Shown one piece after another: positions 36,894 through 60,679 of a DNA stretch of 64,000 nt. Numbering within the stretch: the first letter of the stretch is position 1; every line of letters starts with the position of its first letter. The translations under genes were made by a program, and so were the position numbers. The DNA is from Planctomycetaceae bacterium (lineage in GTDB: Bacteria > Planctomycetota > Planctomycetia > Planctomycetales > Planctomycetaceae). The stretch is taken from NCBI GenBank assembly GCA_021732845.1, contig JAKFUF010000077.1, positions 62,001-126,000 of the forward strand, in the 5' to 3' direction. Below the pieces are notes generated by a model. That model was not told the DNA's origin, searched no databases, and saw only the letters and a list, made by a program, of their open reading frames with translations.

Positions 36894-37020
36894 CGAGTCA
36901 CTCCGTGACTCGAAGCTTCGCTTTATTGACGGCTGGCAGTCCCCAAACAAGCGGTACGGCGCAAGCCGTCTGGTGAGCCACGCGGGTCGATCCACACTCA
37001 CCGGCTTGCGCCGTTCCGCT
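36894..37020. repeat. Outlying hairpin modules of the 37.5-kb array
   Basis: CGAGTCAC-TCC-GTGACTCG at 36894-36912 is a perfect 8-bp palindromic module identical to one in the downstream array. 36950-36977 (AGCGGTACGGCGCAAGCCG...) and 36997-37020 (reverse complement, ending CCGTTCCGCT) form a larger imperfect hairpin of the second module type. No gene is seen from 36705 to 39787. Confidence 0.75.
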
Positions 37021-37543: not shown

Positions 37544-39681
37544 ACAGGCGTGGCAAGGACCGGTGGCGGCGGCCTTGAGTCACAAAGTAGGCGAGTCACT
37601 CCGTGACTCGAACCCAGCCGGAGTGACCGGGCGACGGTGAGACTCACCAGAGAGCTTGCGCCCTGCCGCGCGCTTTGGTGGGCAAGCCGTCGAGCAAGCC
37701 ACGATGCGAGTCACGGAGTGACTCGGCGACTTTGTGTTGCCTCTCGCTCTGCGAGAGGACGCGGGCGTGGTCCGGTTCACGCCGTCTTGATAGCGGAACG
37801 GCGCGAGCCGTCCGGTGATCGGCTTCGCTCTTTGTAGTTCACCGGAGGGCTTGGCCCTCGTTGTTACACACAAGTCGACAGGGGCATTGGCCACGCGGCA
37901 AATGGTAGGTTTTGATTCCATGTCGATGTGGCGGGAGGGCGAAGCTCCTGCTGAGCCGCGGTCAACAGTGCGTGCCCGCTTCTCGCCGCCTTTCCCTCAC
38001 GAACGGGGCCAGATTCGCCGTAAAGACCGTGTGTTTTCTTGCTCGCGGTTCGGCAGGAGCCGCGCCCGCCGCGTCCTCCCGCCACGTCGCCCTATGGGTC
38101 GGCACCATGAAATCCCCGATGCCGGCAACTTTCAGGGTGCCCCGCGGCCGGTTGTGCGACACCGCAACCCCACTGAGCTTGCCTCGGTGGATTCGGTGGG
38201 GTCGTGGAGGACACAGGCGTGGCCAGGACTGGTTGCGGCGGTCGTGAGTCACACCGTAGGCGAGTCACTCCGTGACTCGAACCCGGCCGGGGTGACTGGG
38301 CGACTGTGAGACTCACCGGAGAGCTTGCGCCCTGCCGTTCGCATTGGAGGGCAAGCCGTCGAAGAGGCCACGATGCGAGTCACGGACTCGGCGACTTTGT
38401 GTTGCCTCTCGCTCTGCGAGAGGACGCGGGCGTGGTCCGGTTCACGCCGTCTTGATAGCGGAACGGCGCGAGCCGTCCGGTGATCGGCTTCGCTCTTTGT
38501 AGTTCACCGGAGGGCTTGCGCCCAGCCGCTACTTTCAGGGTGCCCCGCGGCCCCGTGCCGGTTGTGCGACACCGCAACCCCACTGAGCTTGCCTCAGTGG
38601 ATTCGGGCCTCTGCACTACGTCAATCGCCGGCGCGCGGCGTAGTGGAGAGGCCCGTTCACCACCGAGATGAACTCGGTGGGGTCGTGGAGGACACAGGCG
38701 TGGCAAGGACCGGTTGCGGCGGCCGTGAGTCACAAAGTAGGCGAGTCACTCCGTGACTCGAACCCAGCCGGAGTGACTGGGCGACTGTGAGACTCACGGG
38801 AGAGCTTGTGCCCTGTCGCGCGCGTTGGAGGGCAAGCCGTCGAGAAAGCCCCGATGCGAGTCACGGAGTGACTCGGCAACTTTGTGTTGCCTCTCGCTCT
38901 GCGAGAGGACCCGGGCATGGTCTGGTTTACGCCGTCTTGATAGCGGCACGGCGCGAGCCGTCCGGTGATCGGTTTCGCAGTTTGTGGCTCACCGGAGGGC
39001 TTGCGCCCAGCCGCTACTTTCAGGGTACCCCGCGGCCCCGTGCCGGTTGTGCGACACCGCAACCCCACTGAGCTTGCCTCAGTGGATTCGGGCCTCTGCA
39101 CTACGTCAATCGCCGGCGCGCGGCGTAGTGGAGAGGCCCGTTCACCACCGAGATGAACTCGGTGGGGTCGTGGAGGACACAGGCGTGGCAAGGACCGGTT
39201 GCGGCGGCCGTGAGTCACAAAGTAGGCGAGTCACTCCGTGACTCGAACCCAGCCGGAGTGACTGGGCGACTGTGAGACTCACCAGAGAGCTTGCGCCCTG
39301 CCGCGCGCTTTGGTGGGCAAGCCGTCGAAGAGGACGCGGGCGTGGTCCGGTTCACGCAGTCTTGATAGCGGCACGGCGCGAGCCGTCCGGTGATCGGTTT
39401 CGCACTTTGTGGTTCACCGGAGGGCTTGCGCCCAGCCGCTACTTTCAGGGTGCCCCGCGGCCCCGTGCCGGTTGTGCGACACCGCAACCCCACTGAGCTT
39501 GCCTCAGTGGATTCGGGCCTGTGCACTACGCCGAACGCCGGCACGCGGCGTAGTGCACAGGCCCGTTCACCACCGAGATGAACTCGGTGGGGTCGAAAAG
39601 ATCATGGCGGCACGGCGCGAGCCGTCCGGTGATCGGCTTCGCACTTTGTGGTTCACCGGAGGGCTCGCGCCCAGCCGCCAA
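37544..39681. repeat. Tandem array of ~483-bp units built from hairpin modules
   Basis: The phrase ACAGGCGTGG(C)(C/A)AGGAC starts units at 37544, 38213, 38694 and 39179; the last two periods are 481 and 485 bp, the first unit is 669 bp because about 190 bp (about 37925-38100) is inserted, and a partial fifth unit runs 39605-39681. Each unit holds a fixed chain of palindromes: GAGTCAC-TCC-GTGACTC; CCTCTCG-CTCTG-CGAGAGG; a GC-rich pair around GCGAGCCGTCCGGTGA and TCACCGGAGGGCTTGCG; CACTGAG-CTTGC-CTCAGTG; a GCACTACG/CGTAGTG stem; CCACCGAG-ATGAA-CTCGGTGG. Units are 90% or more alike. Reading frames across it encode repeats of each other and are not genes. Confidence 0.88.
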
Positions 39682-51735: not shown

Positions 51736-51897
51736 GAATGACCCAATGACCAATGAAACAATGACCAATGGAAAAGCGATGCCTCGTTGATCTCGTTTCT
51801 GAAGCAGCGACCAATTTGTCATTTGTCATTTGTCATTTGTCATTTGTCATTTGGATTTCCCCATTGGTCATTAGGACATTGGTCATTGAGTCATTTC
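51736..51897. repeat. 36-nt inverted repeat enclosing five ATTTGTC heptamers
   Basis: 51736-51771 (GAATGACCCAATGACCAATG...) pairs with the reverse complement of 51861-51897. Between them ATTTGTC is repeated five times head-to-tail (51814-51848). A related element is at 61618-61700 (CAAATGGCAAATGGCAAATG). These are non-coding; they fill the space before the VOC gene. Confidence 0.85.
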
Positions 51898-59456: not shown

Positions 59457-59975
59457 TCACGGCTTTCGCGGCTCCAACTCATCCCCCGACCGTGACCCGG
59501 TGCCCTCTTTTCGCGAGCGGGCCTCGCGGATCATGGGCGTCAGCTCCTCCACGAAGTCGTTTACGTCTTTGAATTCACGGTAGACGGAGGCGAAGCGGAC
59601 GAAGGCGACCTGGTCGATCTCGCGAAGCAGGTTGAAGACCCTTTCGCCGATGTAGCGGGAGGGGACTTCGCGGTCGAACTCGCGGTGGACATCGGCCTCG
59701 ACCTGGTTGATGATCAGGTCGATGGTGCCGGCACTCACGGGTCGCTTGTAGCAGGCTTTTTCCAGGCCGGCCTGGATCTTTTTGCGGTCGAAGGGGACGC
59801 GGGTTCCGTCCTTCTTGATGACCTTGAGCGGGACTTCCTCGATCTCTTCGTAGGTCGTGAACCGCCGGCCGCAGCGCTGATTGAGGCATTCGCGGCGGCG
59901 GCGAATGATGTAGTCTTCGCTGGCGCGGGAGTCGATGACTTTCGTCTCTCCCGTGCGGCAATATGGACAGAGCAT
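59457..59975 (-). CDS. nrdR: Transcriptional repressor NrdR of ribonucleotide reductase genes
   Basis: A 172-aa protein. N-terminal zinc ribbon CPYC (3-6) with C-L-N-Q-R-C (31-36) and GRRFTTYE, then an ATP-cone (about 50-140; [20 protein letters not shown]). Length is standard with a short polar tail. NrdR senses ATP/dATP and represses nrd operons; none is in the window. It is convergent with the Cys-rich gene at 58958. Confidence 0.96.
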
Positions 59976-60012
59976 TGCTTACCCCGGTTGCCGGTGCCAG
60001 TTGTCAAAAAGC

Positions 60013-60043
60013 TGAGCCACGGGCGCTAATGGCCCGTGGCTCA
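60013..60043 (-). terminator. Terminator formed by an inverted pair of the GTGGCTCA motif
   Basis: TGAGCCACGGGC (60013-60024) and GCCCGTGGCTCA (60032-60043) form a perfect 12-bp stem with a 7-nt loop. On the minus strand the stem is followed by GCTTTTTG, a canonical T-tract (60010-60006), 10 nt beyond the stop of the DUF1080 gene and before nrdR. Each arm contains the over-represented octamer of this genome, so the terminator is built from two facing copies. Confidence 0.88.
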
Positions 60044-60052
60044 AAAACACAC

Positions 60053-60679
60053 TCAATCCGCCAGCGGCTTGACCTTCAGATTGCGGAACCTGACGACGCT
60101 TTTCGGGTCGTGGCCCTGCAACGCGAACGATCCCTTGCCCAGGCGGCGGGGAATGGTCAGCCCTTCCGGTTCGATGTAGTCGATGACGACTTTACCGTTC
60201 ACCTTGGTCTGCACAGACTTGCCTTTGACGCTGATTTCGATTGTGTACCACTCGTTGTCCTTGGCATTGGGCACGAGGCTGTGCGTCACGCCCCACAGGC
60301 TGCCGTTTTTGCGGACATCACCGTGGGTACAGTTGACCTGGCATTCGTAGCCGTGCGTGGGGAAAGTCTCTTCATAGGCGGTGTGAATGTAGATTCCCGA
60401 GTTGCTCCCGGGCTCCGTCATCACTTCGGCCTTGAACTCAAAATTCTTGAATTCCATTTCGGTGAACAGGTGTGACCGCTGCGGTGGGGTGACAATCGCG
60501 CCGTCGACCACCTTCCAGTCGCCCTTCTCGCTGATCTTCCAGCCGGTCAGATCCTTGCCATTGAACAGGCTGACCCAGCCTTCGTCGGCCTTGTCTTTGG
60601 CCTTGTCTTCCGCCTGGCCGAAGGGAGTAACTGCCAGCAGCAGGGAAATGGCGAGCAACAGTTTGGGGGTGCGACGCAT
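60053..60679 (-). CDS. Exported DUF1080 (3-keto-disaccharide hydrolase-like) protein
   Basis: A 208-aa protein with signal peptide (LLLAISLLLAVTPFGQA) and a single DUF1080 jelly-roll: SLFNGKDLTGWK at the start, NFEFKAEVMTEPGSNSGIYI in the middle and FALQGHDPKSVVRFRNLKVK at the end. This family is abundant in planctomycetes and has been linked to hydrolysis of 3-keto sugars or to glycan binding. Start ATG at 60679 follows GGGATCCCCC-like purine-poor leader, so initiation may not need a Shine-Dalgarno. Confidence 0.9.
   Translation of the reverse strand: MRRTPKLLLAISLLLAVTPFGQAEDKAKDKADEGWVSLFNGKDLTGWKISEKGDWKVVDGAIVTPPQRSHLFTEMEFKNFEFKAEVMTEPGSNSGIYIHTAYEETFPTHGYECQVNCTHGDVRKNGSLWGVTHSLVPNAKDNEWYTIEISVKGKSVQTKVNGKVVIDYIEPEGLTIPRRLGKGSFALQGHDPKSVVRFRNLKVKPLAD

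Follow-up and report, generated by a model that had tools for sequence, protein, structure and literature searches.

The window, by which we mean the whole 64-kb stretch of DNA analysed here, contains at positions 60013-60043 two facing copies of the octamer GTGGCTCA, and the question raised by this locus is whether the pair forms a Rho-independent terminator and whether it represents a genome-wide class of such terminators, as proposed in a first-pass annotation. The features of the locus, in order of coordinates, are given below.

59457..59975, minus strand: nrdR gene, codirectional with the DUF1080 gene (Pfam PF22811 and PF03477)
60006..60010, minus strand: T5 tract (the U-tract of the minus-strand RNA; AAAAA on the plus strand), 2 nt past the stem, with tail GCTTTTTGA
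60013..60043, minus strand: predicted intrinsic-terminator stem of the DUF1080 transcript, a 12-bp hairpin with a 7-nt loop and the octamer in both arms (sequence and fold)
60013..60020, minus strand: octamer GTGGCTCA, copy 1 (sequence match)
60036..60043, plus strand: octamer GTGGCTCA, copy 2, facing copy 1 (sequence match)
60053..60679, minus strand: DUF1080 / 3-keto-disaccharide hydrolase gene, 208 aa, 5' of the hairpin (ORF; Pfam PF06439, E 1.2e-45)

On the plus strand, positions 60013-60043 read TGAGCCACGGGC-gctaatg-GCCCGTGGCTCA, a perfect 12-bp inverted repeat with a 7-nt loop (13 pairs when the outer G.U is included), in which the outer eight bases of each arm are the octamer; the sequence and coordinates given in the first-pass annotation are right. 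Its placement of the pair right after the DUF1080 gene was also accurate: the stem starts 9 nt past the stop of the PF06439 gene, and the order on the minus strand is DUF1080 stop, 9 nt, stem-loop, GC, TTTTT, 30 nt, nrdR ATG, making 77 bp from the DUF1080 stop to the nrdR start. The five Ts said to follow the stem on the minus strand are present, but two nucleotides (GC) intervene. On its plus-strand side the stem is followed by AAAA, with no Ts; therefore, only minus-strand termination is plausible. The hairpin had an MFE of −26.2 kcal/mol, compared with −13.4 for shuffled sequences (z −4.9), and none of 200 shuffles folded as well. An Rfam search gave no match above the gathering score. By eye, the T-tract can be seen to share bases with a perfect sigma-70 −35 hexamer, TTGACA (60002-60007, minus strand), a short way upstream of nrdR; no good −10 was seen by eye after it, and a scan reported none.

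Across 2.06 Mb of this genome we then took a census of hairpin-plus-T gene ends, using home-made gene calls that gave 1219 gene 3' ends and requiring a perfect stem of at least 7 bp followed by a T-run of at least 4. This combination occurred at 20 of the 1219 gene ends but at 0 of 1219 mid-gene positions and 0 of 1219 shuffled sequences; therefore, the hairpin-plus-T architecture is a real class here. Perfect stems of at least 12 bp with loops of 3-10 numbered 43 in the 2.06 Mb (40 of them intergenic), relative to 0 in Markov-2 sequence of the same size. A 120-nt search span raised the census to 22 sites, with stems of 7-14 bp and T-runs beginning 0-5 nt past the stem. The 60013-60043 hairpin (stem 12, T5 after 2 nt) is a typical member of this set, several other members likewise having 1-3 nt between stem and T-run, but at none of the other 21 sites is a codirectional gene as near as nrdR is here (77 bp). 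From its fold, its position, and its likeness to other gene-end hairpins we infer that the DUF1080 gene on the minus strand probably ends in an intrinsic (Rho-independent) terminator, or failing that in a 3'-end hairpin, which contains the octamer by coincidence. It resembles known intrinsic terminators in its GC-rich perfect stem, short loop, sense-strand T-tract, and location immediately after a stop codon; it differs from them in its short tract of five Ts, which lies 2 nt away from the perfect stem and could make termination partial, and in that a codirectional gene is very near. In the mechanism we propose, the nascent minus-strand RNA would fold into the 12-bp stem just past the stop of DUF1080, and the U5 tract that follows the stem after 2 nt would allow release of the polymerase. 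The hairpin would thus be one of the genome's small general set of hairpin-plus-T gene ends, one arm of which would by chance have held an abundant octamer, with base-pairing imposing the inverted second copy. As a perfect stem that holds the octamer once must hold its inverse too, the pair amounts to one coincidence; the number of octamer-bearing terminators expected by coincidence genome-wide is 0.22.

A different reading, in line with the first-pass annotation, is that the inverted pair is an uptake-sequence terminator belonging to a genome-wide class of the Neisseria and Pasteurellaceae type, kept because it both ends transcription and promotes DNA uptake. The octamer is indeed abundant, strict, and genus-specific like the DUS and USS of those organisms, the pair does form a terminator-like hairpin, and the stem, like DUS/USS-pair terminators (PMC1852404, PMC2397512), consists of a short genome-abundant word that faces a second copy of itself. 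When the whole genome (9.25 Mb, 262 contigs) was searched for pairs with a gap of 5-20 nt, 14 facing pairs were found, or 10 once repeats were collapsed, where independent placement predicts 6.5. At least seven of the 14 were well inside coding genes, six were copies of two repeated sequences, and only the pair at 60013-60043 combined a T-run with a position at the 3' end of a gene, so that the first-pass annotation's own ground for refutation, a sole inverted pair, applies in substance. Three of the facing pairs were identical repeat copies on contigs C80, C126, and C184; three near-identical facing pairs about 2.2 kb apart on contig C15 (L034 17739 and 19912; L035 2148) lie in a tandem cassette array. 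In 1.9 Mb not chosen for having a facing pair, there were none with a gap of 3-20 nt, compared with 1.6 expected. Everted pairs numbered 25 at 5-20 nt (and 4 at 0-4 nt); 15 of the 25 came from one repeated element, and about 11 remained after collapse. At the same spacing and with repeats collapsed, then, about 10 facing pairs stood against about 11 everted ones, and facing pairs were not in excess. The repeated element has GTGGCTCAACCGGTYGSGCAGRGTGAGCCAC-like sequence, occurs at about 15 places (C1:460, C10:80950, C11:51925, C34:31953, C58:13195, and ten more), and apparently lies in a long intergenic or mobile stretch. The terminator census gave the same answer: the octamer was present in only 1 of the 22 terminator-like sites in 2.06 Mb, the one at 60013-60043, whereas in Neisseria about 55% of the high-confidence terminators contain the uptake word, and in Pasteurellaceae 17-29% do so (PMC1852404). 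What is a common class there is a single instance here, with no pair enrichment. On the pair counts and the census together we rejected a class of DUS-pair terminators; the whole-genome counts largely refute the uptake-sequence-terminator reading, which we regard as very improbable. What survives of the original proposal is a terminator-like hairpin at a gene end and a real genome-wide octamer; inverted octamer pairs acting as a class of terminators are not supported.

The proximity of nrdR raises another alternative, in which DUF1080 and nrdR share one transcript and the hairpin is a stem in a 3'-UTR or between the cistrons, where it would protect or process the upstream message or lower nrdR expression by partial attenuation. 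With nrdR only 77 bp downstream on the same strand, termination at the hairpin means that nrdR must either have its own promoter within about 30 nt or depend on read-through; the interval contains no convincing nrdR promoter, and the U5 tract is weak and spaced from the stem, all of which would suit a single transcript. Weighing on the other side, the T-tract and position agree with the terminator-like class of this genome, and DUF1080 and NrdR are not known to share a pathway. We consider this alternative rather unlikely overall, although the short, spaced T-tract and the nearness of nrdR leave room for partial termination or an intercistronic stem. An origin of the hairpin as one copy of a REP- or MITE-like dispersed repeat is scarcely credible: dispersed repeats do exist in this genome, and some carry the octamer, such as the everted element at 15 places and the three identical facing-pair copies described above, but the inner sequence GGGCGCTAATGGCCC occurs in no other facing pair and the flanks differ. 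Our preferred reading thus remains the DUF1080 terminator with a coincidental octamer, and the pair adds no evidence of selection on the octamer, contrary to what had been suggested. The over-representation of the octamer is real and is a separate matter.

In the 9.25-Mb genome the octamer occurs 3,879 times, with 1,947 and 1,932 copies on the two strands, compared with 439 for the reversed control; this is 9.4 times the Markov expectation, or about one copy per 2.4 kb, and the 64-kb window alone contains 35 copies relative to 3 expected. The word is strict. Most single-mismatch words were near background; those that exceeded it were chiefly variants of the last two positions (GTGGCTTA at 5.4 times, and GTGGCTCC, GTGGCTCG, and GTGGCTCT at about 2.8 times), together with a few further exceptions that were weaker or low in count, such as GTAGCTCA, GTGGCTAA, and GAGGCTCA. 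The flanks showed a mild preference for C at −1 and −2 and no consensus beyond, and with flanks so little conserved we rejected a dispersed long repeat as the source of the octamer. Genic and intergenic DNA had it at equal density (0.440/kb and 0.415/kb, respectively). The copies in coding sequence numbered 731, relative to 78 under synonymous-codon shuffling, and occurred in all five allowed frames, results that led us to reject codon or amino-acid usage as the cause. Counts per 20 kb were somewhat overdispersed (variance/mean 1.6), and low-GC genes had a lower density of copies. No over-representation of the octamer was found in 169 other genomes of the family or in about 270 further members of the phylum (roughly 440 in all). 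Eight relatives, each sampled over 100 kb, had no other octamer with so strong an over-representation: the top octamer reached z 11.5 in one of them and 5-8.5 in the other seven, compared with 12.9 and 16.0 for GTGGCTCA in samples of the same size from its own genome.

Other repeats were observed in the window and the genome. A tandem array at 38193-39329 (485-bp unit, 2.4 copies, 93% match) contains GAGTCACTCCGTGACTC palindromes that recur in the genome, and CACGGAGTGACT has about 53 copies in 2.06 Mb, on both strands. At 51814-51895 there is a heptamer tandem repeat, ATTTGTC/ATTGGTC, and the related words AAATGACAAATG and CAATGACCAATG rank with the genome's most enriched 12-mers. At 36974-36998 and 38984-39008 the octamer precedes CCGGAGGGCTTGCGCC-type sequence, a word that is dispersed in this genome; the window has six occurrences of GCCCTCCGGTGA.

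What the octamer might do can be approached through the genes present. The genome encodes ComEC, the only uptake component found, and AddA- and AddB-like nuclease-helicases, whose matches (to partial proteins) fell below the family models' own cut-offs; with these genes present, an uptake word and a Chi word are both possible. Like DUS and USS, the octamer has thousands of copies, a strict core, equal strands, and both coding and intergenic locations, and it is absent from relatives of a genome that has ComEC; in contrast to them, it is an 8-mer whose flanks lack consensus beyond the mild C preference, it has no terminator class, and it has no proven receptor. Like Chi, it is a non-palindromic octamer, present about once per 2.4 kb in a genome with AddA- and AddB-like genes. 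Strand polarisation is a recognised feature of Chi (PMC8022716), but we found no strand bias of the octamer along contig stretches of 80-220 kb (chi-square about 10 for 10 contigs, calculated per contig); this absence of polarity counts mildly against Chi. A literature search found nothing linking a DNA uptake sequence with planctomycetes, and among the matches listed for the octamer string, all were unrelated. We tentatively suggest, as a possibility and nothing firmer, that GTGGCTCA serves an undescribed genus of planctomycetes as its word for DNA uptake (or for Chi-like recombination), the 60013-60043 terminator being an isolated capture of the word in a stem.

Taken alone, the hairpin would be a routine terminator. 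That its octamer pair is a lone coincidence removes an argument that would have tied the octamer to a Neisseria-type uptake system, and it sharpens the oddity that is left: a strict octamer, about 9 times commoner than expected and evenly present in and between genes, in one of roughly 440 phylum genomes checked. The octamer is a genuinely unusual genome-wide feature, separate from the probable terminator. If it does prove to be an uptake or Chi-like word, it would be the first reported in the planctomycete phylum, as far as the literature searched shows, and would add a new lineage to those with self-recognising DNA exchange.
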